Virus record (IMG/VR): IMGVR_UViG_3300023184_000339
Coordinates: 1 to 33,709 of that record
DNA length: 33,709 nucleotides
Origin: a virus
Strand: one strand, 5' to 3'
Under the pieces are notes generated by a model. It was not told the origin of the DNA. It ran no database searches and was given only the letters and a program-made list of their open reading frames with translations. A program made the translations under genes and the position numbers. This document shows, piece by piece, positions 7,351 through 32,698 of the stretch (positions within the stretch are counted from its first letter, which is position 1; each line of letters starts with the position of its first letter).

Positions 7351-10300
7351 TTAAACCCCTTTAAAAAACTGTGCGGGTATGGTGTTGGTGTATTGCAGTG
7401 CAACTCCATTGCTTGCTGAGTATGCACCTGGCTGATACCAACTTGTTCCTCGACGCACAGTAATTAATACTTCTCTGCCAGCTGGTGGCGGATTGTAGAA
7501 TATAATTTGTTCAGCACTATTATCAAACAACCCATCGCCATATGGCGCAACATCAAACCCGCTGCCAATTTCGTAATCAACCGACAGTTCTTGTAATATA
7601 CCACCAACATATACCAAAATAGCTCTATCAATGAAATCAGCATTGAATTGATCAAGAACCACACCTTGTGGAGCAGAAAATACCGTAGCAGTACCGTTTG
7701 ATAGTGTGACTGTGCTGTCATAGTAATCCTGATACTCGTCGATTAACAAGTTTGTGCGACCTAAGTTGTACACCAAAGATCCTGTAGTGTGACTGTCGGC
7801 TGCTGTGCCGGCAGTGCCTCTTCGCAAACTGCTTACAGTATTGTTGAAAAAATCAATTTCTCTGTACATGATGCGTTCGCCGTTGATTGTTATTACACCC
7901 CAGAGATTTATATCAAAATTAGGTATAGGCAAGGCTGCGGCATTTGCCACGTAAATTATGTCATCAGTTGCACTTAGATCTTGTGTTAGTTCTGTGGTGC
8001 TGCTTTCAGTCATTCGATACGTAGCTTGTATTCCACGCATGTCTTGGAAGATACGGAATTCTAACGCAGTGGTAGCTGGTTCCACTTCAAGAATCACAAT
8101 CACAGCATTTGCTACCGGTGCAGTATCAAATGTAACGCCTGTGCCTGATAATGTGTAATCGGCAGGATCTATTATTGCGTTGTCAACGCACACTTCAACC
8201 GCAGTAGATCCCACAGGCACAATGTAAGGTCCAGTGGTAGTACCATTGCCAAGATATGTTGTTATTGGACGAGTGTAAACTCGGAAATCCATTGTGTCAA
8301 ATTCTGCTCCAGGTATTAACTCTTCAGGAGCATGACTTTCGTAAGGTCCAAGGAATTCGCCGCCGTCGACATTGATGTCTGTATATCTTGTTCCTAAATA
8401 TATGTCATTGAATGAACTGCTGTATAGAGTATCTAGTATTCCTGGATAGTAAGTTGGAGTACCGTCTGGGCCATAAAAAATATCATCAAACGGATTCTTG
8501 TCGTAGCCGCCTACGTCAAAACCAGTATTTTGATTGAACCCTGGTGCAGAGACTTGCACACCTGGGTAAGTTATTCCATCAATCAATAATGGTAAATCAA
8601 GTCCAGGCAAGTTGGCTGTGGGCACATACAAGCCCATGGTTCTGTCAACACCTGACAGTGTGCCTGCATCAACCAGGTTCCAATAGTCAGGATTGAACAC
8701 TCCTGGACTGACTGTTTGAGTTGCTTGCCACACACGATCATCATATCGAACCATGGTACCAGTTGGGTATGTGGCGGTTGAAGTCCATGGAATCACATCA
8801 CTGTAATATTGATAACGGTCATACTTGATTGTGGTCTTAAAGCTACGAATCAGGGCATTTCCCATCACAGCCGCAGCACGGCCGCCTGTACCATTGCCGC
8901 CCACAAACGCTATTGTAGGAGTGGAAATATATCCTGAGCCAGGATTAACTATCACAATATTGGTAATATTTTGTGCGCTGCTTACTTCTGCAACTGCTGT
9001 GGCTGCTGTGCCAGCATATGCTAGAATGGTTGTTCCATTGGCTCTTGCTCCACTGGTAAATGTGGGAGCAAATGATGAGCTAACACCTGCTTGTGTGACA
9101 GTGTAAAGATTGCTATCGTAAAAAATCTGTTGACCTACCACATAACTGGTAGATGCTTGCCATTCAGTACCTACTATAACCAATGGTGCAACAGAATATC
9201 CGCTGCCGTCATCGCTAATGCTAACACCTTCTAGTACTAGTGTGTAGTTGGCAAACCATTGGTTGTATGGTTCCACAGACCACAATGCACTGTTAGGTGC
9301 CACGTCACTGTAAGTATTGAGTCTACCTGTGCCGACTGCTGTGGGTGTGTCGTATGGAGTCAATATTGGACTCATAAACTGATTGGGCACTTGAACAGTG
9401 TTGTAGAATGCCGGCAAATCAAAGTCTGTCATAGCACCTTGATAGAGATCAAACCCATCATAAATCAAGTTTACTTCTCTGATCACAGTGTGATATGGTT
9501 TGACTTCTTTAACATAGTTTACCACAAAGTCTTGATTGTCTCGTTGGTATATTTGGTAAGGCAACAACTGTCTGATTTTATGATCAATATCAACCAAACT
9601 GGTTTTGACCAGCCATTCGGGCGCTTCAATTTCGCTTAGTATAAAATTGAATACCAAAATCAATGCATGATTTCTTTCGACCAACAAGTCACCAATCAAC
9701 AATTCTTCATTGATTGCTTGTATGATCTTTCTTGTTTCTGTCACAGGCTCTTGATCATAGTACTGTGCGTCAAACACTTCAACGTCAAATCCAAATTTGC
9801 CCAGTGCATAGTCCCATAATTCAGCATTGAATGCTATTGTGCCATCTTGCAATCCAACTCTGGACCATCCCAAATCTGATCGCAAATAAATTTCATATTT
9901 GCCTTGAGAGTTTGCAGTAACTCTCACACTGCTACCAAGAGGTGCATCATACAAACTCAATGTGTCAAGATTGGCAGTATTGGGAACTTCAATCACAACT
10001 TTTGTGCTGGAATTGTAACCTGGCAAATACCAGTTGATATAGCTCCAGTACCTGCGAGTGTCATAGGCCTGAACACGAGTTAGCAGCAATGTTTCAAAGG
10101 TTTTAGCAGCAGTAACAGAGTAAATGGTCCAGAAACCATGTTGCGAGCTATCGCTAACAACCAAATACAAATATCCGACAGGCACCAGCACAAGATCTTG
10201 ATAACTGAGTTCTTCAAGATTGGCAACTCGTTTGTCCCATGCTCCAGTTCCGGCCTGTGGTTGTGCTTCGCTGCTGTTTAACAAAGAAAAACTTCGTGTT

Positions 10301-13300
10301 TCGGATATTGGAAAACGTGCTAGGATTTCATTCACGCGAGTCAAGTAGTTTTTCAACGCTAAGAATCTGTCAACAAACATGCTTTGGCGCGGACGGAATT
10401 GTACTCCATATCTTGTGGATGGACTTAGCAACGGGTCTGGCACACGATTGCCAACTGTATCTGCTCCACAGAAACTGTCTTGTAATTTTCTATAGAGATT
10501 TTCTGGCAAGAATCCATCGCCACGGCCTTCAGGAATTAAATCATATTGTACGTGAACATTATCATTGTTTAGTTCGCGATCAAACTCAATGCTTAAAATA
10601 GTATCTTGCGCACTGATTTTATCCAACGCATTGTAAATTGCTGTTGCACTGGCACTAACAAATGCCACGTATGGTATACCACTGCTGCGAGGATTTTCAA
10701 TGTATCTAGCAATGCCAGACACACTGAGATTTTTACCAGCTGCTTGGTTGATTGCAGTTATTCCTCTTACCCAGAAATAGTAAGTGGTTGCAAGAATTCC
10801 ATCTGTCCCAACTGATGTAGTTACACTATAGCTAGATATGCTCTTGGGAATACCGTCGCCGGTATAAGACCCAGGCGGAACAGTACTAGATATCCATTCA
10901 TATACTTCAACTGTGCTGCCCGGGAATGTTTGCCCCCAACGACGAGCTGCATACACAATGTCATCTTGATTGGGGTTGATAAATCTTACAGAGTTAGTAT
11001 CCCACCAAATTTCTCCAACTCGTCCTGCAGACCAAATTTTTCCATAGTTGTTTAGTGTGCCAACGTTGTAGGCTGCTGGATCAATTGCTCCAATGTAATT
11101 GATATTCTGTTGTGCAACTCCTAAGATTTTACCTTGCAATGGATCAAAGAAATCAAAGAATTGTGTTTTGGCACTGGTCAATTTATCATATGTAAACACT
11201 GAGTTGATTAGTGTTACATCTACTACCGGTTGCTGTACATGTATCACATTCCATGCTGGAGTGTTGTTTGCATTAGCAAACGGATTTACTTGTCCGTACC
11301 CATTGTGATTTGGGCTGCTGGCCAACAAATAGCCGCCGGTATAATCAACTGCTGTGCCATATCCATCTAATGTTGCTATTGTGCTGTTTCGAACTTGCTG
11401 TCCAAACGCAAATTTTCCTGGATTGGATGCAGTTTCGTTGGCACTGGCAAAATAATCATATGTGTATACCGCACCACTCTGTACCAATGGACCATTGAAA
11501 GTGGTAGCTTTTCCATCAAAATAGGTAGTACCAGCATCAAATGTATTTGGTCTATACAATGTTGCATTTGGTGCGCCCACACTCAGGGTAGTTGCGGTCA
11601 GTGTGTCGATATTCACTGCACTGCCAAAGTTTGCGTAGGCCAGTGGTGCAGGGCTGTCAATAGTTTGTGTGTACACAAATGTTTCAAAAGCCATGCTGCT
11701 GAAAATTGTCCCAATTTGTCCTGGCAGTACTGTCAACTTGTTGCCTGACACTGCCGAAGCTGTGTTCTTGACTTGCACAGTCAACAGGCCAAAACTGGCT
11801 GTTCCTGACACTCCTGCAAATGCAGTAACATTAGGCACTGTGGATGAATTGATATCCTGGGCTAACACAGCGGCCCAACTGCTAGGCTGCCAGTATGAGG
11901 TATTTGTTATGGCTGTGTTAATTGGTACAACTGCTACTGCAACATACAAGTCAGATCCATTTTTAACTATGGTGTTTTTTGTCCAGGAACTCACACTGGT
12001 CCAAGTGCTTGGAGTACTCAATGTCACTTCCATGTCATTGATTCTAATAGTATTGCCCGGAGTTAATGTTGCATTCACAGTAGAAGTAGTTGTGCCATAC
12101 ACTCGACTTTGATTTACCTGGCGTTCAACCAACCCTGCTTCTATCAGCACACTACTATCAAGTGGTGCACCAACATACAAACTGCAATTATAACGACACA
12201 TGTCTACAGATGCGCCATAGTTTGCATTTTTCCAAGGTTGGTTGCTGCCAATAACTTGTATTAAATTAAACGTGTTAACTTCAATTTCTAGTACATCACC
12301 AACTGCAATGGTGGTGTTTAATGTTACAATATCGCTAGCGACAGAAAATTCACCGCCAATGTTTCCTTCGGTATTAGTTAAAAATGTGTTGTTTAAAATT
12401 ACAGAAGTTGGTGCTACTAAATTGCCGCCGGCCACTGGATAAGAAAGCGTGTCGGCATCAGTAACAATAAACTGTTGTACTGTTCTATCAAACACATAAA
12501 CTGAGCCAGCATCGTCTGCGGTATTGTAGTCACCTGGTGCTCCTATTAGTACTTGACGACCATCTGTGGTGCAACTTACACTTTGTCCAAATTTTGCACC
12601 ATTGGGCAGTCGAGCTGTAATTGTGCGGCTGCCAACTGTTTGTGTTTGACTTACATAGTAGGTACCTGTGCCGCCAGTGCCTGTACCAAACGACACAATT
12701 TCTGTAGTAGCGCCAACGCCAACACCTGACAACTTCATGCCCACTTTCAATGCAGGTGCACCTACAGGTACATTTGTGACTGTCATTGTGATACCAGCAA
12801 TACTGGCAGTGAAGCCAACTGCAAATTCTAATGTGTCAACAAATGTATAGTAACTGCTAGTATCCACAGATATTTGTGCTCCAGGCGCTGGTGCTGTGTT
12901 AAAAATTAAATCGCGACCTTGAATTGTACTACCATCATCAAACTCATAATCAATATTAGGACGTTTCACAACACCATCAACTGTGACTTGGAAACTGTAG
13001 ATGTTTACAGCACTGTACAAGTATTCATTTAGAGAAAACACTCTGGTGCTGCCATTGCCAGTAAACGCCATTATGGGTCTACGAACTAATTTTAACACTA
13101 AATTGCTTGGTGGTGTTGATGTAAGTACCACAAGGCCGCCACCTAGTGTGTAATCAACTCCATACGTTAACACATCGTTATCTAATATTACTGTTAGTTG
13201 TTGCGGTAAATCAATCTCAATTGCATTGTTATAGTTGAAAGATGATTGAGTTCCATTTGTGTTGTATGATATAGTTTGTGTTGCTACTTCTACTAGACCA

Positions 13301-16300
13301 TATGCAAATACTTTGTTAACGCCCGGTGCACCAATGTACATCCAGTTCTCATCCGGACTTATCACTACGCTACGACCAAACTCAGCTGGTTGCGCCAGAT
13401 CATTTATAACTGGTGCAGTTAACAAGCTGCCAGTTACAATACTGCCGCCCGAATCAGGTGCAACATATAAAACTGCGGCATAGCCTGCATTGGCAGTGGC
13501 CGCCAGTCCTGTACTGGTTGGTGCACCTACTGCAATCCATGTACGATTGCCTATGCTGACTGACGAGCCAAACCCCTTGATTCCAGTGGCATTTATTTCA
13601 ATGATAGTACTGTCTTGAGCAAACGGTACTATATCTGTTCTTGCATATAGGTACACACCGCCCGAAGTATTGTAATTTGGGCTGCCTACTAAGGCAAACA
13701 AATTGTTTGTGGCCTGTGCAACACTGGCACCAAAGTTGCTGTTGTTAGCTGTGGTCTTGGCAACCAGCGGAGCACTCGGTGTAAACACTTCTTGTTTTTC
13801 CAATACTTCCCATAGTCCTTCGCCATTGTTATCAACCCACACACGACTGCCGGGTATGAAATAATTTGAATACGGTAATGTGTTTATATCACTGGCTTGC
13901 GCCACACGCTGACTCTGCAATTTGAACACTATGCCATCGCCAGTGGCCACAATTTGATCTTTTGCTAAGAATGTAAAAGCAATGGTAATTTGATTGATCG
14001 ATGGCACACCAAGCACACGATACACACCATCTACTTCTGATGAGAAGAATCTAATTATGATTGTGTCATCAACCAAAAGCCCATGTGGATTGACAAAAGT
14101 AACAACAGATGTGCCATTAAGGTTTGCATTCACTTGAACAGCAGCACCGTTCACATGTTCTGTTCTGTAAATACCCCAATCATAGTTGTTGATCTTGGCT
14201 ATCCAGATGTTGGTGCCTACGATGATTTCATCAATATTTGCATCTAATGCTGTGGGAGTTCGAAGATCAAACACAGTAATGTCCACATCATTTATACTCA
14301 CATAGCCAGCACTGGGCAACGACACATCAGTCGGAGTGGTAAATGTTGTGGTCAGTATGTCTGGACTAGGCAGTTTGTAACTTTCATTCCACAACTTGCT
14401 CAGGAACACAGTTTGATTAGCTATACTTGTTTCACCAGGCACAATTACTTGTATAGTACTGGGGTTAGATGTTAACAGTGCTTCATTCAACTGCATTTCG
14501 TAATAACTGCGATTTGCATTTGCACCATACACAGCTCGTTGCACAGCCCAATTTTCGTAGATATTGTATTCAGCTGTGCCACGACCAAGGTCAGCTAATG
14601 TGAAAATTTCAGCAGCTCTAATAGTGCCCTTGGTTCCCAAGAACTGTTTGTACAAGTTTATTTGACTGACACTGTCTAAGTTCAATGCAACCATGTATTC
14701 TCTAGGCTTGTATCCAATCAATCCAAAAGAAAACAAGTCCTGATTGAGTTCAAGATTTGCATTGTAAATGTCGTAACTGTTGGCCAACTGATCACTCTTG
14801 TTTGGCAAGTTGGGCAGCAGGCCCTGTTGTATTCTAGTGTAGTCGCTGATCACCCAGTCATTGAAATCAAATTCTACTTTGGGCTGTACTATAACCACTG
14901 CACTATAATAGTAATTTTTGTAAGAAACAATTTCGCCGCGAGCGTATCGACGATTTGGCAGCCATTCTTTTATGTTGTCTTGGTTGAGAATAAATCCAGG
15001 TGCATTCAGTTGCCCATTCCAATCCACACTGGTAGTACCAACCAGTCGAATACGACTTTGTCTTGCACCAGTTACAGGTTCATACAACAAGTCAGCAAAT
15101 ATACTTCTGTTGTCTAGTACAACCATATTTTCATATGATGTAAACTTGATATTGAAAAAGTTTATTGTCTCATTGGACAACGAACGCAGAGTGAATGTAT
15201 TGTCCAGTCGTTCAACCACAAGATCACGAGTATTAAATGGAGTTCTATCAGCATTCAACACCATGTTTTCTACAGTTTGCAATGCAATGCTGTCAACAAT
15301 GGCATCTGGTTTTTCTACAATTATTTTGGTTGCACCAGGATTCAAATTGATAATGCTGTTGACTGCCCATCCTTGCCCGCTCCAGTACAAGAATTCAGAA
15401 ACCATCTGGTTCCAGTCTAACACATATCCATTTTCTAACTGATTGAACACAAGGCCTTGTTTTTGTAACAATGCACCATAGCTCAACAAGAAGTCAGCAA
15501 CCAAGGTACGATTGGTAAACACATAACCATAAGGTATTTGTACCACGGTATCGCTGTAGTTTACAGGCACCTTAACACTAAATCCGCCTGCACTCACAGT
15601 TGCAAGATTGCCGTTTATCAAACTGGCCAGTATATTGAAATACGGTTGAGTGGCGCTGTAGCCATATACTGCCCAGCCGTTTGTGGTAGACTGCACAATC
15701 ACACTGCTGTAGGTCAGTTGTTCAAACGGTACATTTTTGTAGAACAGCAGATTATAACTGTCATCGGGCAGTAACAGACTTGAATTCAAACTGTTTGGAC
15801 TGGATTTTTCAGTATAAATTTCTAGTAAATTTTTACCAGTGAACGATGCCATTCTATAGCACAGTCGAACGTCTAAGTTCTTGAGATCAGCAGTGAGTAC
15901 ATCGGTCGAATTAATGCCTGACAGTCTGTTGTAGTCCACAATCCAATCAATGTAACTGGCCTTGCTAACTCCGTTGCCGTAAATTTCAAGTCCGTTGGCG
16001 TCCAGGCGATATCGTCCATTATAGAGATATTGGTCCAATGATACATCAAACTTGTAAAGATCTCTATCTGCAAACAAGCTGAAGAATTCAGCCGGGCGAG
16101 TTAGTGCCAACATACGCATGATAGCAAAAGGATAAGCACTGCTGGTACGCCAGGCATTTTCAACAGGACCATCGTCGCCTACTGCCCATGACTTCTTAAA
16201 GTCCACACTATTGTAATTGCCAACCATCACTTCAATTGGCGGTAATAAATTACCTTCAGAGTCTGCCGGAATTACATTTGTCAATCCTGGACGTTTGTAC

Positions 16301-19300
16301 TTTTCTACCACATACGGAACAAGTGGATCACGCACCAGTCCCAGTTCCAAGTCGTCCCACAAGTTCAAGTTACCCGACGTGTATGGTGCTGGACCATATT
16401 CATTTTCCCACCATAATGGTTTTTTATCAATGCCCAACATTTCCCAAGGTGTAGTGTTAGGAGTAATGGTATCATAGAAATAATCATAGATGCCGCGCCA
16501 TGCACCAACTGCCAATGGTTGTGTATTATTGAGTTTGTTGGCTGCTGAACTATAATTCCATGTGAATGCATTATCAGCAATGTAATTTTGTGTTTTATAA
16601 TCTAACTTGTTCCAGCCAACCCAGGTCAAAAAGTCTTTACTTAAGATGTCTGTTATTTCACTTAGACTGTAGTCTGTGGTTCTGAATTCTCCTGGAATAA
16701 CCTCTGTGCTAACCAATGGTACAGGGTTACCATCTAATTTTAAGTTGTTGTAAATGCGTGTTTCAAATTCCAACAACAACTGATCTCTAAAGTCATTGAA
16801 CGCTACTGTAATAGATCCGTCGTGCCCACGAATTACCAATGTTGGAGTCACATACGTGTTGTCTAGATATATTGCAGGTTCAAATGCTGGGTACAATCCC
16901 AGTTTGGTAGGAGTGTTTGGAACAAATGTTCCGTAGGTGGCTGTGTACTCTTGTATGGTCACAGTGTCGCCAACTGACAATGGCAACAGAATAGTCAATC
17001 GTGGACCGTCAGTTGCAACAACATATTCTTTGTCACGTGTCAACAACACATCATTGATATACACCAACAAGCCTAGGTAGTTAGCAGATGTGTAATTATA
17101 AATCTGTGTGGTATCAAATACTTGTGTGGTAATTGGGGTCACTGTTGTGGTCAACACAGTGTACACATTGCTGGCTGGTAACATGTCTGACCAGTAGAAT
17201 GAATTGTCACTAGTTCTGCCAGATATAATGTCAGTGATTACTGCTGTTAAAATTTCTGGCACAGTCAAGTTGACGTAGTCGTTAGTGACTGCGGTATTCA
17301 ACAATTTTGCCTTGTACTTTTCGTATTCTCTTGAATTGTATTCAATGCTGGCAAAAATATTGTATTCTGGATTTCTCAAGAAATATCCAGCCAATGTCAT
17401 TGGAGCACTTTGTTGTAAGATGTTCAGGCCAAATGGTATGATGTTGCCTAGATCTCGTGAGTTGTTGGCACCATTAACTTTGCCTGAGAAGCCTATTAAG
17501 TTTTCAGCAATAGTTTCGTAGTGAGTTCTAACAGTGCCCAATGTAAAGTTGCTGGAATTCTGATTCAATGGGTTGTTTTCAAGATTGTTAGGCACTTGAT
17601 AAAATGCCACATCACTAATCTGATCACTCAACGCCAGCACTTCAATGACTTGACCTGGCACAATCACAGTGGTGCTTGGGAATGTGATCACTGTGGTATT
17701 GGCAGTGGTTGTGTAGGAATAAGATGCAGGATCCTGAAATGCGCTGTCTACATAAACTTTGATTGACGGAACTGTATTTTCAGCTTGTACAGCAACATCC
17801 AATTGCAATGGTGTGTTCACTGCATATACAAAACTAAATTGTTGATAGATATTGCTCTTGGTTGCAGCAGTTTGCCATCCAATTTTTTTGCTGTAAATAG
17901 TACGGTCAACATATTCTCTCACAAATCCCTGGCTGATCAACTGTTCATTACTGTTTTGATTTCTAACAAAGATAAAAGTATCAGTGTAGAAATTGTTGTC
18001 AAACACAATGTCGCCCACGTTGTTTAGACTTAGGTATTTTAACGGAAAACTCAACACAGTATCTTCAACACCTGTGCCAATTGCATAACTAAACAACTTG
18101 GTGCCAACAAATGTGCTACTTGGATATACTACTGAATTATTTAGACTGACTCCATCTGCATCAAATACATCAAACAGTGGCGGTTGATTTGTGGCTGTTT
18201 TTTCTTGGGCTTCGATCCACTCAGTTCCATCATAATAAAAACTTATGCCCTGAAGAGTAAGGCCAGACAGACAAACTAAATTTTGATTTACCAATACTTC
18301 AGAATCACTAGTAGGCGTTAAATTAATAATTGGCACTACCAAACTGCTGCCGTCAGAATCAGGTTCAATGAATTCTACTTGATAAATTCTATTTCGAACT
18401 TGTTCATCAACGTCGGCTGCAAAAATAACTCTACTGCCAGTGATAAGATTATACCCATCAGTGCTGTAGCCAATGCTGCCATTGATATTGCTAAATGCAT
18501 CAGTTTCTTCAAAATCAATGATGTTAACTGGTTGCTTGCTTTGCGTTCCCATGTTGAATAACTTCAGGCCACCACGGAATTCCAAGATAGGCCGTTTAGC
18601 TCTGAATGCATTGTCCAGTACCGGCGAACTATTGTTATATGATGAACTGGCGGTGATTACATCAATGTGAAACCATCGATTACTACGTGTCCATGCATTT
18701 AAATCTGGAGAATCCAATGATATGGTCATGTAATCCGGCACCAATGGCTGATTCAAACTGGCATCATAATTACCAACGTCAAATGGCGTTGTGTCAAATG
18801 GCACACTGGCAGATTGAGTGTAAGTTTCTGGTGTGATATAATTGCTGACTGGCAGCAGTTGTATTGCTGTGCCTACCCCGGCCACATAGTACTGTTGATT
18901 TTGATAGCTGCTGGGCGTTACTGATCCAATAAATCTCACTTTGAGATTGTTGGTAAACACCACTCCGTTGGGACTGGTATAAGTTTTCTTGCCCAGTATG
19001 TCAGTATCAATATCTAACACATCAGAATCAACTTCGTCAATCAGTCTGATACGACCAAAAATTTCCGGGTTGGTTCCGTCCTGATACCATACAAAATCAT
19101 TTGCTGCTGTTAGCAACGGAATTTGTTGCAAAAATCCTGATTCTAATTTGTACCATTGTGTGCTGGCATATTGATTTCCATACAAGATATTGAACTTGTC
19201 TAGTATGGCAATATCTTGAACAACATTGAGCTGTAAGTATGTGCCGGCGCCATAGTTGACATAACTAATACGCCAGATGTTATAATATTGATTGGTTGGT

Positions 19301-20313
19301 ACATCAGTAGTATACGAAAATGGAATACTATCGTAACTGCCCACTTGACCATCTTGCGTTGCATTATTGGTCAATGGATCAAATAATGACTGATTGATCC
19401 ATCCGCCATCAGTTGGATCAAGAATTTCATTAGTGAAAACCAAGGTGCGTCCATCCAATGATGTTATGCCGTCGATGCCGCCGTGTTGTTCTAAGAATAC
19501 ATCTAGACGGATTCCATTGATTTGATCAAATTTTAAATCTGTAATCAAGTCAACTGATCCAAGATAATTTAAATCGTAGTAAAACTGCTGTGCATTTTTT
19601 AGTGGCACATTGAATGTTACAGAACCTGAACTGGTGCCATTGTCAGTCACGCCCAGTACATCTCTACTGCTGATGTTTGGCGAGTACGGCAACTTGCCTG
19701 ACACTCCTGGTTCAGCTTGAATCCAGAAACTGTTAGGTGATTGATTTACATTGAACGTGTAGTTGCCACCTCGAACCAAAGTAAGCAACGGATCTTCTCC
19801 GCGCACACCACTGAAGCTGTAGCTGTTGGTGTTTCGAGTAACATCAAAAATGTCAGTTAACGGATAAGCCGAAGAGTATACATCTACTGAATCTGGGCCG
19901 CCTGGCAACCAGTAGTACTGACTGTAATTTATGAACTTATCAAAGTTAACAAATGGATCCCAAGAATAGTACTCACTAGTATACAACCTATCACTGTCAT
20001 TGGTGATAGCACCTTGCACAGCTAATGCATCGGTTATGCCTGGATAGGTAATTGCATCTTGTATTTCTGTAGTATCTGGCTTGAGACTGATCACTCCGGG
20101 TTCAAGCTGATAGTTTGTTCTGACAGCGTCAGGTTCCAACACATAGTAATCGTTTGGATTTACACCTGGACCAACTCGGCGTCCCACAAAACCTTGTGTC
20201 TTTTTAAATGTTGGCTCTTGGACCAACTGATCCAATGTGGCATTCAAAAATTGCTTGTTGGCTGTGGTTTGAAATATTTCTGGTAAAAAATCAACTGTGC
20301 GTGTGTTGGCCAT
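7351..20313 (-). CDS. Giant modular baseplate/fibre protein (4,320 aa)
   Basis: One uninterrupted frame, starting one base inside the gp6 stop (TAATG) and ending at TAA 7353-7351. Residue positions below are approximate. N-terminus: [20 protein letters not shown], likely the anchoring end. Beta-sandwich modules with a VxVDG...DY...F...P..G..I pattern lie at 846-898, 1063-1125, 2356-2412, 2416-2483, 2621-2682, 4018-4080 and 4200-4320. CBM5/12-like modules (W..xxY..G..V.Y...Y) lie at 1780-1822, 2768-2814, 3715-3765 and 3838-3882. A PHGL-type module is near 2062-2112. Seven FG-GAP-like blades lie between 2185 and 3015. A charged helical segment with [20 protein letters not shown] lies within 3518-3640. 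GSGY...P strands are near 3700 and 3789, and an INGERIMY...[11 protein letters not shown] module is near 4085-4185. It occupies the position of T4 genes 7 and 8. I infer a wedge-attached, glycan-binding megaprotein; neither enzyme motifs nor a signal peptide are seen. Confidence 0.85.
11270..13760 (-). repeat. FG-GAP-like propeller blades within the giant gene
   Basis: Seven degenerate protein repeats in the giant gene, each with an FG.SV opening, a hydrophobic strand and usually GAP or SP. Openings and cores seen are NFGASV/VGSP, GFGSSV/VGAP, EFGRSV/IGAP, KFGQSV/IGAP, NYGASV/VGAP, NFGSAV/VGAP and GYGTAV/ASSP. Several end in VYLY, VYVF or VYTY. This is the pattern of integrin-alpha FG-GAP blades. 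Beta-sandwich and CBM-like modules are inserted between blades 3 and 4, 4 and 5, and 5 and 6. Seven is the blade number of the classical integrin propeller. Confidence 0.65.
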
Positions 20314-23300
20314 TAAATCACTCCACTACCTGGTGCAGTACGAATATTGGTACTGGTCAATGCTGTGATCACTTCCACACTGCTGACCCCAGCAGCATTA
20401 ACGAAGATTTCACTAGGAGTGCTGCGGATTTCGTACAAGTCACCAAAGCTCTTTAACGGATCTAACGGAACCAATACCACTGAGCTCACAATACCGCCCA
20501 TATTTGCATGAATATATGCTGCCAATTCAGAGAAATAAAATGTATCACCAAAGTCCCATTTGTCTATGGTAAAATAGTTGTTCAAATTTGCCACCACAAG
20601 ATTTTTAATTTCACTTTCACTGGCTGTGGAGTTAGCGGCACGAATAACTTTGATAGTGGCTCGCAGTTCGGGTGCAGCCTTGGGACCAAACAATGGTTTG
20701 AATATCACGCTGTTGACCACAATGTTATCACTGATCATTTTGTAATCGTTAAGTCCTTGGTATGCAGTACTCAGTTCGTTGATGGTAGGCAATGGTGGAT
20801 AAGGCACTGTGTCTGTGGTGTCTCGTACCCAATTTTGATATGCAGTATAATAACTTTGTGTGACCACATAAAGATCAATAATATTGGTTGTACCTGGATC
20901 AATTCTACTGGTCAGTGGAGCATTGTGACGATACTGATAGTATATGCTCTGGCGGCCAACTCTGGCCACCCACTCAACTGTTACATCAGTCAGTGTTCTC
21001 ACACCAGTTGTGGTTACTGACAACAGGTAGAACGCACCTGTGGTTCCGGCTGCTGGACCTACATAGTTTATTTGACCATAGGCATAGAATACTTGTCCGG
21101 GCAAGAATTCTGACTTGTAGGCTTCAATGTCATCTAAGGTAGCAAAATTTGCATTCACACGCTCAGGTTCTACCAATAGATAACGTTGTAAATTATCAAA
21201 GTCCACAGTTTTCTCAAAGAACACATACTTGGTAGTTGAATTTACATCAGGTGCCACAATCTCATTAAAGAAATCTGGATCATCTGCAACTCCGTCGGAG
21301 TCTGAGTCCTGATAACTTACTATCACCTGAAAGTCATCCACAAAACCGTCGCTGGCCACTGGCTGCCCAATAATGCTCAATGTGATGTCACCAGGCAGCG
21401 GTACATTGCTATCTGGTCGAGAATTAGTTTTTAAAACTTTCACATAGTCACTGATCACAGTGCCGGTGCGACTGTCGTATATGCGTTGATTTGTTTCAAA
21501 GAAGAATCTAGTTTGTAATACGCTACCAAACGAGTATACCAGTGCTCTGCTGGTCACTGTGTACTTGGTTCCGTCTGTGATAAATTTAATCAGCCAAGAT
21601 TCATCAGCATTGGTGTTTGAAGTATCTTGTGCATTGGCCAAACTAAAGTCATTGGTATCAGTGTTTAAGTTGGTTGATGTGATCAAATACCATGTGGCAG
21701 TTTCGTTATCATATCCCAAACCAAAGTTACGATATAAAATAATTTGCTCTGCAATGCTATTTTCCAAGCTAGGTGTCAAATCAGTTACTAGAATAGGAAT
21801 AACTTCTGTGGGAATTGCGCCAGTAGGAATAAAGTTGTTTAACACCACTGGTCCTGAGCCATTGCTGAAATTGCCAAGACCTTGATTGGTACCATCAAGA
21901 TAAATGGCACTAGGACTTGCCCATACTGTTAGTTTTTCGTCAGCGCGAGTAGGTTCTCCCAACTGCAATCGATTGTTGGAATCAAAATAATAGCCAGCTG
22001 GCGCTGCAAATTTTATCAACGAACTCACTTGAATGTACTTGGCATTGCTACTGCTGTAACTGCCTATTGGAACAGGTACATCAGCAAAATTTTGAAAGTA
22101 TCCCGACGTTTCATTGGCCAATGTAGTGCTTTGATGCCATGTTAGATTGAGTGGCGTAAGACTTGGGCGCGGAAAATTAGCATAGTAAAATTGTATAAAA
22201 CTGTTTTTCACTAATAATGGTTCTACACTATTGGCCAATATGCTGGCAATGTCATTGCGATTTATCCAGGTAAAGAAGAATGTGGGCAGTTGATTTTCTT
22301 CCCATAACGCACCATCACTGCCAAAACTGTTTGTAGACGAATACTTGCCGGTGTTATCCACTAGATCAAGATAACGACTGGTTCCAATAGATGCACGGTT
22401 CAATGCTTTGGATTTGATAATTGAATTGTACAAGGTAAAGGGAAAATTATTGTAATCTTCTCCGTTGACCATGCGATTCTGTGTGTAGTAACGAGCTGGC
22501 GCACGTTGTTTAATTTCGTCCAGTGTTTCTCTAGGTTGTGCATTGCTTACTGGTGTGGTGATACCACAGGTGAATGTCACAGTTTCCAGTTGTCCTGTAC
22601 GGCTGATGTAGCTGATAGGAATCACTACATTTTGCATTTCTTCTGGATTGATAATGTATGACAATCCGTTGCTGGCTCGTACATAGCATCTGAACAACCC
22701 CACCGGGATTGTGCTAAACACGCCGTCGCCGAATGTCAGTGTGATCTGATCATTGGATCTACTGGTTACTGAAAACAATTTTCTTTGATCAGGAGCCAGT
22801 TGTTCTGTTGCAGCAGCAAAAACACTTTCTACAAACTTCCACTGGTACTGTATGTTTCCCACAGTATCCAATTGAAACAACCAACGATCTTGATTGTTAA
22901 CGCCTTCAATATTGATTGGTACCACGCGATTGGCCACACGCTCACCTAGATTGAAGTCTTGATTTTGCAACACACCTTGTTTGAAGTAAAAGAAGTATCC
23001 TGTGTCAGCTGCGGAAAATCCCAGTTGATCGTTTCGAAACAACAAATTGAAAATACCATTAGCAATAGGACTAGGTTCGTATACATAATCTTCTCCCACA
23101 CTAGTTGAGCTTACAGCTTCAAATGGCATGTTTACTCCGTCTACCACAGAAGTGTATGGTATTACTGGCAGGAAGCCTGGCACCAGGTTGACACCGTATT
23201 CTGCGGTGTCAACCCCCAAGATTGTTTGACGGTTGCCAGGTTTCCCCACACGCTGAGTGTTTACCAAACATGCATTAATGATTGCTGTGAACTGTTCTTG

Positions 23301-23756
23301 CCAGTTAAAGTTGGTAGGATCATTCCAATTTATAGTAACATTGCTTAGATTAATACCGTTGAAATCATAAACATTTTCTGTGGTTTGAATGCTGAATACT
23401 TTGAGGTAGCCCTGCGCTGCTTGGTTGCGCTTGGGGGTGTAGCTCACAAGATTTGCCAATTTTACCACAGAGTCTCTGCGCTCTGCGGTGTCTAGATAGT
23501 TTTCTCGTGTGTTTAGATCATTGCGGAAGGACAGCGCCTGTCCCATAAACGCCATTACATCTAGTAATGCAATGAATTCTGAGCTTTCAATGTAGTCATT
23601 GTAGCTTTCTGGGTAGTATTGACGTATGTAATCTACAAAACTTTTTCGCAGAGTCTCAAAGTCGTAGCTTTGAAAGTCAGCTTCGCGATAAGTTTGATAG
23701 ATGCGCTTCCAATCTTCAACGCCAAATATTACTGTTTGTCTTGTAGTGCGTGCCAT
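20313..23756 (-). CDS. gp6: Baseplate wedge protein gp6, enlarged (1,147 aa)
   Basis: The N-terminal region [20 protein letters not shown] (about 59-78), followed by [20 protein letters not shown], is characteristic of T4-like gp6/baseplate J-type wedge proteins, where gp6 dimers form the inner ring of the baseplate. The C-terminal end ([20 protein letters not shown], then [13 protein letters not shown]) fits the ring-contacting end of gp6. T4 gp6 is 660 residues, so this one has about 490 extra, mostly beta-rich material between N- and C-terminal parts. That insert includes a [13 protein letters not shown] loop near 815-828, similar to calcium-binding acidic loops. Its position directly after gp25 and before the giant gene matches T4 order (25, 6, 7, 8). 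A late-promoter box lies at 23773-23780. The ribosome-binding site is weak (ACGGAT). Confidence 0.9.
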
Positions 23757-23799: not shown

Positions 23800-24174
23800 T
23801 TATACGTAACTGGCTCGTCGTTGTTCTTGATCAAAAAAGATACTTAGTCGTTCAACATCAGTGCTGGGCACAATCTGAAGTTCCAGTTCAATCAATATAC
23901 CATTTTCCTGAGGATACATATTTGCGCTGTAGATTGAGATCCTAGGGTCGCCGCCTGCTACACGTTGAACTTCGGCTAAAATTGCTCGTTCAGTGGTGGT
24001 GTCTTGAGATTCAAACACATAATCATAGATTACTGTGCCGTAGCCCGGACGTCCGGGCAATTGTCCTTGCCGAATACCAAATGCATTCAGCAGATCACGT
24101 TTGACCAATTCAAAGTCAGTTAGTGTGAATTTTTTATATCTGTCAATGGTGCTGAATCCAATAAATGTGCTCAT
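23800..24174 (-). CDS. gp25: Baseplate wedge protein gp25
   Basis: A 124-residue protein, close to the 132 residues of T4 gp25. Diagnostic features are the central Gly-rich turn GQLPGRPGYGTVIYDYVFES (37-56), a helix with AEVQRV, and D76-P77-R78 at the place of the conserved Glu-Pro-Arg that in T4 ties gp25 into the wedge core bundle with gp6 and gp53. The last third is a beta sheet (ILIELELQIV), as in the gp25/TssE family. gp25 joins the wedge to the sheath and helps start sheath polymerisation. Only seven bases separate its ATG from the stop of the preceding gene. There is no clear ribosome-binding site. Confidence 0.92.
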   Translation of the reverse strand: MSTFIGFSTIDRYKKFTLTDFELVKRDLLNAFGIRQGQLPGRPGYGTVIYDYVFESQDTTTERAILAEVQRVAGGDPRISIYSANMYPQENGILIELELQIVPSTDVERLSIFFDQEQRRASYV

Positions 24175-24181
24175 GCTTTAT

Positions 24182-25624
24182 TTAGTGCTCTGAAAGTGCA
24201 AATCCAAGGTTAGGCAGATTGCGTAGATATTTTATAGTTTCAGCAATAAAATCAAGAATGCGATTACTTCTTTTTTTGATGTGAGTGTATTCAGTAAGAT
24301 ATGTTTCTCGAAGATCGTAAGGAGATGCAGACTCCAACTCATAATAAGGATTAAGTGTGGATGAATAGGCTTCTGCATAAAGTGTATTCAATTCTTTTAA
24401 TTTTTCTTTGATTTGGTCAGACGGGTCATCGGCCTGTACCTGACTGCTGATAGTTTTGCTCAAGCTCTCAAGTTTATCAAGTTCAGCTTTGCTGGCAGCA
24501 ATGGCGGCTTTTAATTTTTGTTCAGCAGTGGCTTCTTTTGCCGGCTCTGGCAGCAACGGTAATCCTCTGTTGGCTCGTTCTTCGTTCACGCGATTTAACA
24601 CCAATTCATCTGTGCCATTGTATGTCAAATCTTCATCTTTTGTGTTAGAATAAAAACTGCCTGGGTTGATCTTTGGTATCTTAGAATCGCCAATGATACT
24701 GGCAACACCAGCATTAAGCGTGGCACGATCTACTGTTTTGGCAAAACCTTTGGCTTTTTGTATACCAGCTTGTAGAGGATTGCCACCGCCGGCTAACTCA
24801 GCATTTGCTTCGGCAAACGACTGAGAGAAGTCTGCTTGTTTTGCAGTTTCATTTAGCTGATTGACTAGGTCCCCGGGTGCCTGCCCCTTGGCCCAGTCCA
24901 TGGTAGGACCAGTTCCAAATTTAGTGGCGTTTTGCAACAACGGTCCTAGTTTTTCAGCACTCTCAGTACCGTCTATAGCACCCAGTTGTTTGAGCTGACT
25001 TAAATTTGAATCCATCAGGCCTTGTTGTACTTTGCCTTGCAAATTGGCATCACCTAACACTTTGGCAAGGCTAGTGGCGCCGGCTACACCAGTCCACACT
25101 GCAGGGCTTTGCAAAATGCTGGTTAGTTGTGAAGGGGTTTGCGCAACTTGTTCAGCAACACCTGGCTTGATCAGTCCCGACAGTTGCAATTGATTGGCGT
25201 CTAACCCAAACTTGCCCAGACCTTTTTCATTGGTTATCACGTCTGATGCTTGACCAACTGCGGCGCCGGCTTGACTTACTAGACCTTGCACTTGTGTGGG
25301 ATTCAATGTGCCAATGTTCACTTGACTTACTGACTGTCCCACAAAATCAGCTGCCCCAATAGGGTTGTTGATTGGCACACCTTTAAGGGCTGGAAATGAT
25401 CCTGCAATAGATTGCAAGTTGGGATTCAACTGAGATACTGCTGTACCCAGCCCAGCAGCTGCCTGAGTGGCAGCACTAAGAGAGTCTCCAACTTTGAGTC
25501 CGGCCAAGCTGCCAGTGTTAAGTTGTTTTTCAAAAATAGCTTTGGCTTGATCGTATGTTCCTTCAGGAGGACCTTTGACCTCTATTTCTTGACCGTCAGG
25601 TGTGGTAAATTTAAAGATGCTCAT
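24182..25624 (-). CDS. Putative virion/baseplate-associated protein (480 aa), unrecognised
   Basis: I start it at ATG 25624, which overlaps the gp5 stop as ATGA; an in-frame ATG seven codons upstream (25645) lies inside gp5 and is less likely. The N-terminus, FKFTTPDGQEIEVKGPPEGT then YDQAKAIF, is a short beta/helix motif found at the start of many phage proteins. Residues about 45-300 are Ala/Gln/Gly/Leu-rich with few aromatic residues and low complexity. A charged helical stretch rich in Lys and Glu (about 355-430) is likely coiled coil, and the last 60 residues are Tyr-, Arg- and Leu-rich. Its place between gp5 and gp25 implies a baseplate, tail-length or assembly role. It is not identifiable as gp29 or gp26 from sequence. 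Confidence 0.75.
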   Translation of the reverse strand: MSIFKFTTPDGQEIEVKGPPEGTYDQAKAIFEKQLNTGSLAGLKVGDSLSAATQAAAGLGTAVSQLNPNLQSIAGSFPALKGVPINNPIGAADFVGQSVSQVNIGTLNPTQVQGLVSQAGAAVGQASDVITNEKGLGKFGLDANQLQLSGLIKPGVAEQVAQTPSQLTSILQSPAVWTGVAGATSLAKVLGDANLQGKVQQGLMDSNLSQLKQLGAIDGTESAEKLGPLLQNATKFGTGPTMDWAKGQAPGDLVNQLNETAKQADFSQSFAEANAELAGGGNPLQAGIQKAKGFAKTVDRATLNAGVASIIGDSKIPKINPGSFYSNTKDEDLTYNGTDELVLNRVNEERANRGLPLLPEPAKEATAEQKLKAAIAASKAELDKLESLSKTISSQVQADDPSDQIKEKLKELNTLYAEAYSSTLNPYYELESASPYDLRETYLTEYTHIKKRSNRILDFIAETIKYLRNLPNLGFALSEH

Positions 25625-27120
25625 GACTTTGCCTGTAGCTCCCATCCACTTGGCACTGGTTCAGCAGTTGGCGGTGGCGGTGGCGGTCCTTCACTAAACG
25701 CCACTTTTACATCTACCCCTTCGTTGTGATAGCTGTAAGGCTCATGTGTGGGTGCTCGTGTAACAATGCTTTCTAATGCATCTGCGTCTGTCTGCCAACC
25801 AGTGCTGTAATCAAATGTAACGTCATCCATGATGCGTTTTGGAAATAACTTGGGCACATTCACAGTGCCTGCTGATCCTCCGTTTAGATCAATTCTGCCA
25901 GCTGTTAATGCCAGCCCGCTGCCTGCGCCCCAGCCGCCTGATGCGCTTTTTAGCGTAAGGCTGCCGTCAGCACGTATGCCCAATTCACCGGAACTGTACA
26001 TGGTAATTGATTTTTCTGCGGCAAAATTCATAGAAGCAACTGCGCCAATATTGGTGTCAACATTGCTTTTCATGTTTATGTTGCGTCCGGCAAACATGTT
26101 GATGTCTCTGTCAGCATGCAAATTAATGTCGCCCTGTGTGCGAACATTTACTGAGTTTGTTGAGTAGATATCTACTGTGCCTTCGCTACCCAGCTCTAAC
26201 CAAGTTTGTCCATTGGCATGTGCAATGTATATGAAGTTGTTGGAGTCATTCATCATGATCTGATGACCCTTGGCAGTTCTCAAACGGAACAGTGCATCAT
26301 CGCCGTCAAGATTACCATCATCCATCACAAAAGTATGGCCGCCTTGTCGACCAATTACTTTAACATCCTGAGGGTTTACTGTGCCTTCACTTAACTGTTG
26401 TCTAATGGTAGCAGGATTTAATCCGCCTGAATAGATTGGCTTGCCAGGTGTAGAAATTCCATAAACTGTACTTGGACTTTCTCTTTGTGCTGTGGACCCA
26501 ATGGGACCACGTTGGATATCTTTGTCCAGACCTTGCTGAAAAAGTATTGCTGCCTGCACACTATGAACTGGTTTGGGCTGATCAAAGAATCTTGCATTTT
26601 CGTCAATTTGCTTGTTGTCTGAATTGATTTCAGTCACAGGCAGTTGTGGTGCTCCGGCAAAGTAGGCTTCTTGTGCTTTGTTTTGTGTGCGATAGTCAGC
26701 CACAGCACCTATGGCCGGAATCATGTGATTGAGACCAATTTCGGGTACACACCCCACATAATAACCTTGACTGGGATCACCGTTTACAAAGAAACATAGT
26801 ACACTGGTATTGAGGTCTGGCGGAGTAAACCACATGCCATAGCTTTGTTGATTGCCAGGATAAGTTCCAACTCCGTCAATGGTACTCTCTTTAGGAGTAA
26901 GTCCATAAAATGGCGGCAGGTAGTTTACATATCTCCATGTCATGGGATCTTCTGGATTGGTTGAAAATTGTTTGATAAAAACTTGCAACTGTCCACTGCG
27001 TTTGCTGTCAATGTTATTTTTGACCACACCAATGAACGGCCCAAATTCAGTTGGTGTGCCGCCGCGGTCATTTCTAAAGTTTGGTGATCTACCTGATTTG
27101 CGTTCTATGTTTTCTGCCAT
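25621..27120 (-). CDS. gp5: Baseplate hub/needle protein gp5-type, without lysozyme domain
   Basis: A 499-residue protein. Residues about 27-130 look like the gp5/VgrG OB-fold (FIGVVKNNIDSKRSGQLQVF, then MWFTPPDLNTSVLCFFVNGD). About 235-290 is the entry to the needle (GRQGGHTFVMDDGN, RLRTAKGHQIMMNDS). About 290-410 has the alternating hydrophobic pattern of the triple-stranded beta-helix, for example GDINLHADRDINMFAGRNIN. The C-terminus has a six-proline run (near 485). T4 gp5 carries a lysozyme domain between OB-fold and needle; here this is a linker of about 100 residues without lysozyme-like motifs. The protein would form the membrane-piercing spike on the hub. AAGGAAAC precedes the ATG at 27120, and the gene's stop overlaps the next start. 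Confidence 0.85.
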   Translation of the reverse strand: MAENIERKSGRSPNFRNDRGGTPTEFGPFIGVVKNNIDSKRSGQLQVFIKQFSTNPEDPMTWRYVNYLPPFYGLTPKESTIDGVGTYPGNQQSYGMWFTPPDLNTSVLCFFVNGDPSQGYYVGCVPEIGLNHMIPAIGAVADYRTQNKAQEAYFAGAPQLPVTEINSDNKQIDENARFFDQPKPVHSVQAAILFQQGLDKDIQRGPIGSTAQRESPSTVYGISTPGKPIYSGGLNPATIRQQLSEGTVNPQDVKVIGRQGGHTFVMDDGNLDGDDALFRLRTAKGHQIMMNDSNNFIYIAHANGQTWLELGSEGTVDIYSTNSVNVRTQGDINLHADRDINMFAGRNINMKSNVDTNIGAVASMNFAAEKSITMYSSGELGIRADGSLTLKSASGGWGAGSGLALTAGRIDLNGGSAGTVNVPKLFPKRIMDDVTFDYSTGWQTDADALESIVTRAPTHEPYSYHNEGVDVKVAFSEGPPPPPPTAEPVPSGWELQAKS

Positions 27121-30227: not shown

Positions 30228-30527
30228 TTAAAACCCTAACACTCGTCGAAGTGTAGTTATTTTAGGCAAATATATTTGTACTCCCACACGAAAATCCAAG
30301 GGAGGAGCTGTAAGAGTATTGGGATTGCGTTGATAAAACACCCACCATAGCGTTGAATTGTCGTACAAGTCAAATGCCAACAAATCAGGTCTGTACTGAT
30401 AAGTTTGATTGATTATCATCACACGGTCGTCGTTTTCTTTTGGTATGGATCTGTTTTCCATGACATCCAAGAAAAACTGACTGTACCCTGTGGCAAAGTA
30501 AGGACTGGTTGCGTCGTATGTGGCCAT
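30228..30527 (-). CDS. gp53: Baseplate wedge protein gp53-like (99 aa)
   Basis: A 99-residue protein; the start is ATG 30527, which shares one base with the preceding stop and has GGAGG nine bases upstream. An ATG two codons earlier (30533) lies inside the upstream gene and is less likely. The core YRPDLLAFDLYDNSTLWWVF (45-64) followed by RNPN and a VGVQIYLP end (81-88) matches the pattern of gp53, where T4 has RPEELANAIYGNPQLYWVLL. The short LysM-like ending is common in this group. It is about half the length of T4 gp53 (196 residues), lacking the C-terminal part. In T4, gp53 clips neighbouring wedges together around gp6 and gp25. Confidence 0.65.
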   Translation of the reverse strand: MATYDATSPYFATGYSQFFLDVMENRSIPKENDDRVMIINQTYQYRPDLLAFDLYDNSTLWWVFYQRNPNTLTAPPLDFRVGVQIYLPKITTLRRVLGF

Positions 30528-32698
30528 TACCAAAATCCTCCTTTGAGTAAGTCACCATTGGCATATCCTTTGAGGCTGAACTGTCTGCTGACCTGTTGTC
30601 TGCTTTGGATGGGATATAAAGTAAGGCTGATATCCATTTTTGTTGGTACGTATGTGGGCTGATTAAGTCCCAGTGTTGGCGGCGCTGGACGTGAGTCTAT
30701 GGCGCCTTTGTTTATTTTTTGGCTGCTGAATAAATTTTGAAGACGTTGCACTGCGCCCGATACAGGATTGGTGGGCAAGTCTTGTTTGTTTCGTCGAGTC
30801 AGTAAATTTGCTCCATTTATGTTTACACTGCGAGCACGAATATAATCTACGTCATTGGGCAAGTTCAATTGGAAATTATTTACCACACACGGATGTGCCG
30901 AGAACTGATACTCTCCAAGGCCAGTAAGGTATACCAATGGAGGTGGTGCTCCACGTTCTGCATCTTGGCCATAAAACATTTTTGTTATGGATTTAAAGAA
31001 ATGTATCACTGCCAACAGGTAATCTGCTTCTGAAGAATCTTGTGCAGTAAATGTGGCAGTTAAATTTACTGCATCAGTATAACTGCTTTTATAAAAATAT
31101 CCACGATAGTTGCTGTGTGTGAGATTGTAAGTGTCATACTCAGCTTTGTAGTTGGTATCAATTTTAGGCATGTATGGAAACACAACACCGTCAGTGGCTG
31201 CGAGGGGCTGCAAAATTCCCGGTGGTGATGCATTGTACAAATATGTTGCACCAGGTGCTAGACTGAGTCTCACACGCCAGTCGCCATTGTTGGCCATTTT
31301 CTTTTGTGCAGCCAGCACTGCTTGTTTTTGTGCCAGTCCAGTTCCCACAGCAGCTTGGCTGGCAGCATTGGCTTCGGCTGTGTCTGCATCTCCTGCCACA
31401 GCCTGTGTGCCAAACTCATTTGGATCCAGTGCCGATACTAGTGCTCCGTCAACTGGTGTAGCTGACTCTGCGGCTATGCGCAGGTCAGCAGCTTCTCGTT
31501 CTCTTGCGGCGGCTTCAGCAGCCGCATCACCCGAGTTGGCTAGGTCCACATCGGCAGCTTGGTCCAGTCTGGCATTAAAGGCAGCATCTGCTTGTGCAGC
31601 CTGTTCAGCATCACTTACATAACCAGTATCTAACGGAGATACAGGATTGGCAGATTCAGCAGCTACTTGCAGGTCAGCAGTTTCTTGTGCCAGTAGTGCG
31701 GCATCTTCGTCAGTTAGCGGAACATCGCCGGCTCTATCCAGTCTGGCATTAAGAGCTTCATCTGCTTGGAACTGTTGTAGTTGCTGTTGCTCTAAGAGTA
31801 AGCCTTCAGTATATGGATCAACTGGGGTTGATGATCCAGCGGCTACTTGTAAGTCAGCAGCCTCTTGCGCTTGAAGAAGTGCTTGTTGCTGTTCCAATAA
31901 TCCATCAGTTTGTATATCAACTGGGGTTGATGATCCAGCAGCTATTTGTAAGTCAGCAGCCTCTTGTGCTAGTAATGCAGTGCTAGTTGTTAGTGGAGTG
32001 GCTGATTCGGCAGCTATGCGTAAGTCAGCAACATCTCGTGCAGTTTGTGCATCAGCTGATGGAGTGGCTGATTCGGCAGCTATGCGCAAATCGGCTGCTT
32101 CTAGTTGTTGTTGAATTTCTTCATTGGTCAACGGAACAGTAGATGCTGTAACAGTGGGAGGAACAAATGGATCAACGTTTTGTGAGGGAGTAGTAGTTGG
32201 ATCTACTGCTGCCGAAGATTTAGGAACATTTGTGCTGACCGGCAAAATATCAGACGCATTGTTAAAAAATTTTCCAATACCACTTCCGATACTGGTAATT
32301 AAATTTGGATTTTTAGTGATTGCTGTTAGTGCCGCAGCGCCAAGAATTAGTCCATTGGGGTTGTTTAACAAATCACCGTTGCCCTGTGGTGACGTAGGCA
32401 CCACAAAAGGAGTTTGTTTGGCATTGGAGTCTATTGCAGGAGATACACTGTTTCCAGTTTTTCCCTGAGATGCCTGTAGATTATTTTGTGTTGTGTTGAG
32501 ATTAAGTTGAGTAGACTTAACTGTGAAACTTGTTCTGTTTATAGCATTGCTGGCGTTGATAATCTCAGTTGGTGTTGCGGTGTTACTGTTTTTTAATTTG
32601 GTATAATTTGCTTGTGCGGCCGCAAGAGATTCAACTGCCGCTGCATGCGTTTTTTCTGCATCTGTTAATGCGTTTTGTAATTGATTACCAGTGGCCAT
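30527..32698 (-). CDS. Baseplate/tail-tube-cap-like protein with Ala-Gln repeat region (723 aa)
   Basis: First gene of the leftward operon. Residues 1-80 form a helical, coiled-coil-like start (LTDAEKTHAAAVESLAAAQA). About 110-145 is a hydrophobic Gly/Ala/Leu segment. About 195-420 holds six copies of an ADLxIAAxSxxP repeat spaced by Glu/Gln/Ala-rich helices. About 470-723 is a folded C-terminal domain with WRVRLSLAPGATYLYN, YKAEYDTYNLTHSNYRGYFY and the ending GYANGDLLKGGFW. The C-terminal domain resembles the gp48/gp54 tube-initiating baseplate proteins in position and in its beta-rich character, but I cannot decide between them. Ribosome-binding AGGAAAA lies before ATG 32698, and a late-type box lies at 32716-32723. 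Confidence 0.7.
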   Translation of the reverse strand: MATGNQLQNALTDAEKTHAAAVESLAAAQANYTKLKNSNTATPTEIINASNAINRTSFTVKSTQLNLNTTQNNLQASQGKTGNSVSPAIDSNAKQTPFVVPTSPQGNGDLLNNPNGLILGAAALTAITKNPNLITSIGSGIGKFFNNASDILPVSTNVPKSSAAVDPTTTPSQNVDPFVPPTVTASTVPLTNEEIQQQLEAADLRIAAESATPSADAQTARDVADLRIAAESATPLTTSTALLAQEAADLQIAAGSSTPVDIQTDGLLEQQQALLQAQEAADLQVAAGSSTPVDPYTEGLLLEQQQLQQFQADEALNARLDRAGDVPLTDEDAALLAQETADLQVAAESANPVSPLDTGYVSDAEQAAQADAAFNARLDQAADVDLANSGDAAAEAAAREREAADLRIAAESATPVDGALVSALDPNEFGTQAVAGDADTAEANAASQAAVGTGLAQKQAVLAAQKKMANNGDWRVRLSLAPGATYLYNASPPGILQPLAATDGVVFPYMPKIDTNYKAEYDTYNLTHSNYRGYFYKSSYTDAVNLTATFTAQDSSEADYLLAVIHFFKSITKMFYGQDAERGAPPPLVYLTGLGEYQFSAHPCVVNNFQLNLPNDVDYIRARSVNINGANLLTRRNKQDLPTNPVSGAVQRLQNLFSSQKINKGAIDSRPAPPTLGLNQPTYVPTKMDISLTLYPIQSRQQVSRQFSLKGYANGDLLKGGFW
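31470..32105 (-). repeat. In-frame tandem repeats encoding ADLxIAAxSxxP units
   Basis: Six related units inside the 723-residue protein. Two neighbouring units (31818-31866 and 31917-31965) are 99 bases apart and almost identical in DNA. Another pair (starting at 31995 and 32061, 66 bases apart) share a 23-base perfect stretch. All offsets are multiples of three, so copy number can change without breaking the frame. Confidence 0.8.

Follow-up and report, generated by a model that had tools for sequence, protein, structure and literature searches.

A predicted seven-bladed integrin-type beta-propeller carrying exchangeable modules in a giant phage virion protein

What is a run of integrin-like repeats doing in a phage virion protein? 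The window analysed here is a stretch of 33,709 nucleotides (positions 1-33,709 of the IMG/VR virus record IMGVR_UViG_3300023184_000339). It encodes a virion protein of 4,320 residues, in which a preliminary description, made from the sequence alone, had read seven FG.SV...GAP repeats at about 11.2-13.75 kb of the window as an alpha-integrin-type propeller. We found seven motifs of this type, at residues 2194, 2248, 2312, 2575, 2699, 2896 and 2985. The repeats span residues 2194-3001, and no FG...GAP motif cluster was found elsewhere in the 4,320-residue protein. The Pfam family PF14312 (FG-GAP_2) matched with a score of 52.4 bits (E=6e-14; cut-off 23), the best stretch being residues 2572-2608. 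Taken with the family alignment and the structural model described below, the motifs and the Pfam match confirm the seven repeats.

We further assessed the blades by a leave-one-out test, in which each blade was scored with a profile of the remaining six, with 200 shuffles as control. Blades 1-5 were recovered at 7.5-25.7 bits, compared to a shuffle maximum of 4.4 bits (n=200). The test, a form of the profile comparison proposed earlier for detecting the repeats, did not recover the window's blades 6 and 7. The family alignment keeps the FG glycine in 72/72 rows at blade 6 and in 71/72 at blade 7, and blade 6 retains FG and the P of GAP in 72/72. We accept blades 6 and 7 because this alignment and the structural model support both.

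The structure of residues 2150-3050 was predicted using AlphaFold2 from a 72-row alignment, in which the window sequence is joined by 71 non-redundant relatives sharing 37-62% identity with it. The model, characterized by a predicted local distance difference test score (pLDDT) of 91.9 and a predicted template modelling score (pTM) of 0.91, contains seven sets of four strands as assigned by DSSP. The VYxF/Y strands that had been noticed after the repeats are the C strands of the blades, and the model showed neither unrelated folds nor repeats that fail to align as blades. Thus, the alpha-integrin-type reading is upheld by a confident seven-bladed model. The top PDB match, as ranked by the program Foldseek, is the integrin alpha-V headpiece (9ind_A, E=1.2e-9, probability 1.00), and integrins account for 43 of the 50 best PDB matches. 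The template modelling (TM) score to 9ind_A is 0.62 by target length and 0.33 by query length, the latter being low because around half of the query consists of inserted domains. The second-best match, chain U of the cyanophage A4 portal-tail structure (PDB 9k09), has E=2.7e-9 but a TM-score of 0.09; this chain may be another phage propeller. Sequence searches gave no PDB match for the propeller or the whole protein, and no NCBIfam match. A chance run of motifs is ruled out by the Pfam score, the leave-one-out scores relative to shuffles, the model, and a control with shuffled open reading frames (n=67), in which no blade match exceeded 6 bits. We conclude from the model that a complete seven-bladed integrin-type beta-propeller is almost certainly present within this giant phage virion protein.

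The FG-GAP_2 proteins and the integrin alpha propellers, the latter providing the best solved structural match, likewise combine the FG...GAP motif with seven four-stranded blades. Inspection of the blades for DxDxDG calcium loops, as the preliminary description had suggested, revealed none in the propeller region of the window, and the A-B segments of the relatives are motif-free and of nearly fixed length. Since the A-B loops lack DxDxDG in both the window and its relatives, the propeller is of the FG-GAP_2 type, and a calcium-binding propeller of the integrin kind is ruled out. The phage propeller also differs from integrin alpha propellers in having domain insertions in the C-D hairpins of blades 3-5. 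Unlike the integrin alpha subunit, it is embedded in a virion protein and has phage chassis on both flanks.

Long insertions had been described between blades 3 and 6. These insertions are real, but their exact sites are the C-D hairpins of blades 3, 4 and 5 and the linker from blade 3 to blade 4 (Table 1). Over the 72 rows, the C-D loops have 6-12 residues in blades 1, 2, 6 and 7, compared to 137-305 in blade 3 and 86-208 in blade 5. The inserts of blades 3 and 4 are sandwich-like in the model, as had been proposed, whilst the proposed CBM-like character, seen in the blade 5 insert, is recognizable only via relatives. The second domain of the blade 3 insert weakly resembles the T7 tail-fibre N-terminal domain (PF03906, E=0.0029, 17.7 bits, below the cut-off of 25.2), and comparison of the sandwich inserts with each other for internal repeats gave weak cross-matches. 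The linker module is found in 15 of the 72 rows and looks mobile; otherwise the linker is mostly 5-10 residues (full range 5-77). The blade 5 insert has a base domain of ~86-97 residues with a nested site, which is empty in ~20 rows and holds a CBM5/12-like module of ~45 residues in ~26. Most of the remaining rows have a ~60-residue insert at this site, which, in the rows read by eye, resembles a T7-tail-fibre-type sandwich.

PF02839 was detected in the nested modules of 7 of 24 relatives (best E=5e-4). With a profile of the 24 nested modules, matches were obtained to an F2-pyocin tail fibre (E=8e-7), to two tail spikes or fibres of phages (1e-5 and 2e-4) and, weakly, to chitinase domains (E 0.08-0.36). 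We consider "CBM5/12-like" a fair label at the level of the family, whose modules may bind glycans. Among six near relatives, identity is 91% in the chassis (residues 1380-1800), 73-85% in the blade A-C segments and 65% in the CBM-like part, the least conserved piece among those compared. This higher divergence of the cargo would fit exposed, adapting modules. Judged from the alignments, relatives swap their insert modules and retain the disc.

To get a broader picture, we collected relatives of the propeller region and found them at no fewer than 214 IMG/VR loci. Exactly seven blades are detectable in 137 of 137 long near relatives, and all 72 diverse rows align across the seven FG...GAP positions. 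Remote relatives were fetched by the chassis and their blades counted with an iterated blade profile. This gave seven blades in 30 of the 54 propeller-bearing tree representatives, six in 18, five in 5, and three in one truncated record. On a chassis tree (67 rows, quick search, midpoint root), the presence or absence of the propeller requires two changes, compared to a mean of 12.0 for shuffled labels. One of the two is a propeller-free member (L249) within the propeller clade, where the propeller was probably lost; for the family as a whole, a tree rooted at the midpoint would fit either gain or loss. Remote relatives include, as read from sequence, an almost bare disc with seven closely spaced motifs and little cargo (L175; FG-GAP_2 by Pfam) and a member with CBM-like modules in other blade loops (L182; FG-GAP_2 and CBM5/12 by Pfam).

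The giant proteins of PA5oct, RaK2, Salmonella PHA46, Vibrio 2.275, SCTP-2, Atu_ph07 and Phosso run co-linear with the chassis, and none of the seven contains FG-GAP blades; tblastn searches of cultured phage records (whole region at E 1e-5, blades 1-3 at E 10) found no propeller. Between the conserved halves, there are ~70-155 residues in RaK2, PHA46 and Vibrio 2.275, and 320 in PA5oct. In the Rhizobiaceae phages Atu_ph07 and Phosso, the propeller site (around residues 1660-3200) is occupied by ~1500 residues rich in GxGY-type repeats, indicating that it accepts different large inserts. In the sequences compared, the tree and alignments show the propeller to have been inserted as one block at a single site, with a clade-wise distribution. 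The carriers form a clade of myophages that are uncultured and probably of the jumbo type. We rejected a host-derived or prophage protein, since a single genome-contig scan, which uses short peptide patterns and has limited sensitivity, found no relative.

The occupation of the same site by other modules in the Rhizobiaceae phages could suggest that the disc acts above all as a spacer, with inserts that are neutral, hitch-hiking modules tolerated at many loops. CBM5/12-like and sandwich-like modules are also present at other places in the giant protein, including a strong PF02839 match at residues 3717-3745, outside the propeller. We regard a spacer with neutral cargo as quite improbable, as the seven blades and the near-invariant motif columns are kept over wide divergence, and the large inserts are restricted to a few loops.

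Does this protein belong to the baseplate, as had been stated? The cluster is headed by a late sigma factor gene, and the giant gene comes after the gp6-, gp25-, gp5- and gp53-like genes. PA5oct has this gene order too, and the annotation of its homologue, gp355, records detection by virion mass spectrometry. Residues 642-1959 and 3024-3338 align with the PA5oct protein at 28% and 32% identity, respectively (blastp, E=6e-143 and 9e-51), and the chassis at residues 1380-1800 has 83-86% identity to near relatives. The baseplate assignment is supported by gene neighbourhood and by the mass spectrometry noted for PA5oct rather than by a structural match of the chassis. PHROG 10938 giant post-gp6 proteins (PA5oct gp355, RaK2 gp465, Atu_ph07 gp180) have an equal gene position. 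The giant gene directly follows the gp6-like gene, the position of gp7 in T4, but no sequence similarity to T4 gp7 was detected (hhalign probability <1%). Identification of the chassis as T4 gp7 is supported neither by hhalign nor by Foldseek with a model of residues 1-660 (pLDDT 83, pTM 0.58, low in residues 1-120).

What would such a disc do at the baseplate? In standard propeller topology, the C-D loops of neighbouring blades lie on one face. We propose that the disc would act near the tail tip, on the periphery of the baseplate, as a rigid spacer and as a platform that displays exchangeable modules for adhesion or docking, a function that we consider on balance probable, if by no great measure. 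The modules on neighbouring blades (CBM5/12-like and T7-tail-fibre-N-like sandwiches) would contact either glycans on the cell surface or fibres of the phage itself. Exchange of modules with the disc kept would then allow a lineage to retune adhesion while the wedge stays undisturbed. The disc displaying binding modules on its loops, as first suggested, is supported by module swapping as far as display is concerned, whilst binding itself stays a prediction.

Several observations weigh against display. The window's own nested CBM-like copy has no Pfam match. The resemblance of these modules to portions of the tail fibres and tail spikes of phages could mean that they are docking collars, and relaxed constraint could produce a similar divergence of the CBM-like part. 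The face assigned to the inserts follows from standard topology and not from coordinates. Finally, the model of residues 1-660 has no PDB match by Foldseek below E=0.01, the best non-significant ones being cupredoxins.

The propeller may instead serve as an internal assembly hub, its faces and inserts docking fibres of the phage itself or adjacent wedge proteins with no host contact. In the T7 tail protein gp12, a seven-bladed propeller serves to make contacts between subunits and to close the channel (PMC6702177), and wedge proteins of A-1(L) hold the long tail fibre (PMC10966104). The T7-tail-fibre-N-like folds and the CBM-like matches in tail spikes, which fall at residues 29-59, would also suit docking. 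T7 gp12 resembles the present case in having a seven-bladed tail propeller with a blade 3 loop leading to another domain. It differs in being a podovirus nozzle hexamer, for which that paper is not known to report FG-GAP repeats (PMC6702177), and it is absent from the top 50 PDB Foldseek matches of our propeller. We take an assembly hub to be possible but somewhat doubtful, as inserts that vary and are swapped on a stable disc and chassis would be expected more of an exposed part facing the host than of a fixed interface. The main point on which the two readings disagree is what the inserts contact, and of the two we favour display.

Studies of host recognition in large myophages usually look to the tail fibres. 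We tentatively suggest that the conserved integrin-type disc could be an evolvable baseplate display that swaps glycan-binding or docking modules on particular blades, so that host adhesion would be retuned in the wedge and not in the fibres only. If true, a widespread giant baseplate-cluster family with an integrin-type disc and modules that can be exchanged would be a second, wedge-borne place for the evolution of specificity. It would also offer a clean case of one domain insertion nested in another, whose numerous natural variants could be used to study how scaffolds take up cargo.

Propellers in phage tails and viral FG-GAP-like proteins are already known. Foldseek matches to the fold in BFVD, down to E=1e-30, include proteins of uncultured Caudovirales (A0A6J5L8L4, A0A6J5S3H5), of Atu_ph07 (A0A2L0UZX4) and of giant viruses; some are named FG-GAP-like, and the names look automatic. 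The giant protein of Atu_ph07 lacks the propeller, yet the matching protein of this phage is a separate 393-residue "hemagglutinin" (E=1.8e-10). In the open-access literature, we found no paper that joins FG-GAP with a phage baseplate, and none that describes module swapping or the insertion of such a fold into a protein of the baseplate cluster; this is weak evidence, as subscription papers fall mostly outside that scope.

Table 1 Features of the giant protein and its gene neighbourhood in the window.
Feature	Residues	Window position	Strand	Basis
Giant virion protein bearing the propeller (4320 residues)		7351..20313	-	single open reading frame; PHROG 10938 virion structural protein, E=1e-297; co-linear homologues including PA5oct, RaK2, Atu_ph07
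Conserved chassis, N-terminal of propeller	1130-2177	13783..16926	-	similarity to PA5oct and near relatives
Blade 1	2190-2243	13585..13746	-	FG-GAP motif; leave-one-out 17.6 bits; four strands in model
Blade 2	2244-2307	13393..13584	-	motif; leave-one-out 7.5 bits; model
Blade 3, strands A-C	2308-2342	13288..13392	-	motif; leave-one-out 10.7 bits; model
Blade 3 C-D hairpin insert, two beta-sandwich-like domains	2343-2486	12856..13287	-	model strands
Blade 3, strand D	2487-2496	12826..12855	-	model strand, relative residues 339-346
Small all-beta module (TASIAG...) in the linker between blades 3 and 4, from strand D to strand A	2497-2570	12604..12825	-	optional in family
Blade 4, strands A-C	2571-2612	12478..12603	-	PF14312 best stretch 2572-2608; leave-one-out 25.7 bits
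Blade 4 C-D hairpin insert, beta-sandwich-like	2613-2676	12286..12477	-	model; near-constant length in family
Blade 4, strand D	2677-2690	12244..12285	-	model strand, relative residues 525-539
Blade 5, strands A-C	2695-2740	12094..12231	-	motif; leave-one-out 12.7 bits; model
Blade 5 C-D hairpin insert, base domain and nested module	2741-2876	11686..12093	-	family lengths in distinct classes
Nested CBM5/12-like module	2770-2814	11872..12006	-	recognizable through relatives' profile
Blade 5, strand D	2877-2890	11644..11685	-	model strand, relative residues 730-736
Blade 6, conserved 30-residue B-C loop	2892-2980	11374..11640	-	model; family alignment
Blade 7	2981-3030	11224..11373	-	model; family alignment
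Conserved chassis, C-terminal of propeller	3031-3640	9394..11223	-	similarity to PA5oct
gp6-like baseplate wedge protein, adjoins giant gene		20313..23756	-	PHROG 10646 and 219 baseplate wedge subunit
gp25-like baseplate wedge protein		23800..24174	-	PHROG 43, E=2e-9
gp5-like hub protein		25621..27120	-	PHROG 13211, E=2e-37; Phage_base_V, E=0.0022, below cut-off
gp53-like baseplate wedge protein		30228..30533	-	PHROG 7145, E=3e-20

Two further observations concern the rest of the window. Residues ~165-260 of the giant protein (window 19534-19821, minus strand) have a cupredoxin-type look (GGNYTF...NNG...GSVTFNVP) with no obvious copper ligands, and this module gave weak, non-significant Foldseek matches to laccases and rusticyanin. 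Beside the tail cluster, a radical-SAM-like gene is located at window positions 3-989 (minus strand, weak Pfam match), and radical SAM genes are annotated near the corresponding cluster in Atu_ph07 and Phosso.

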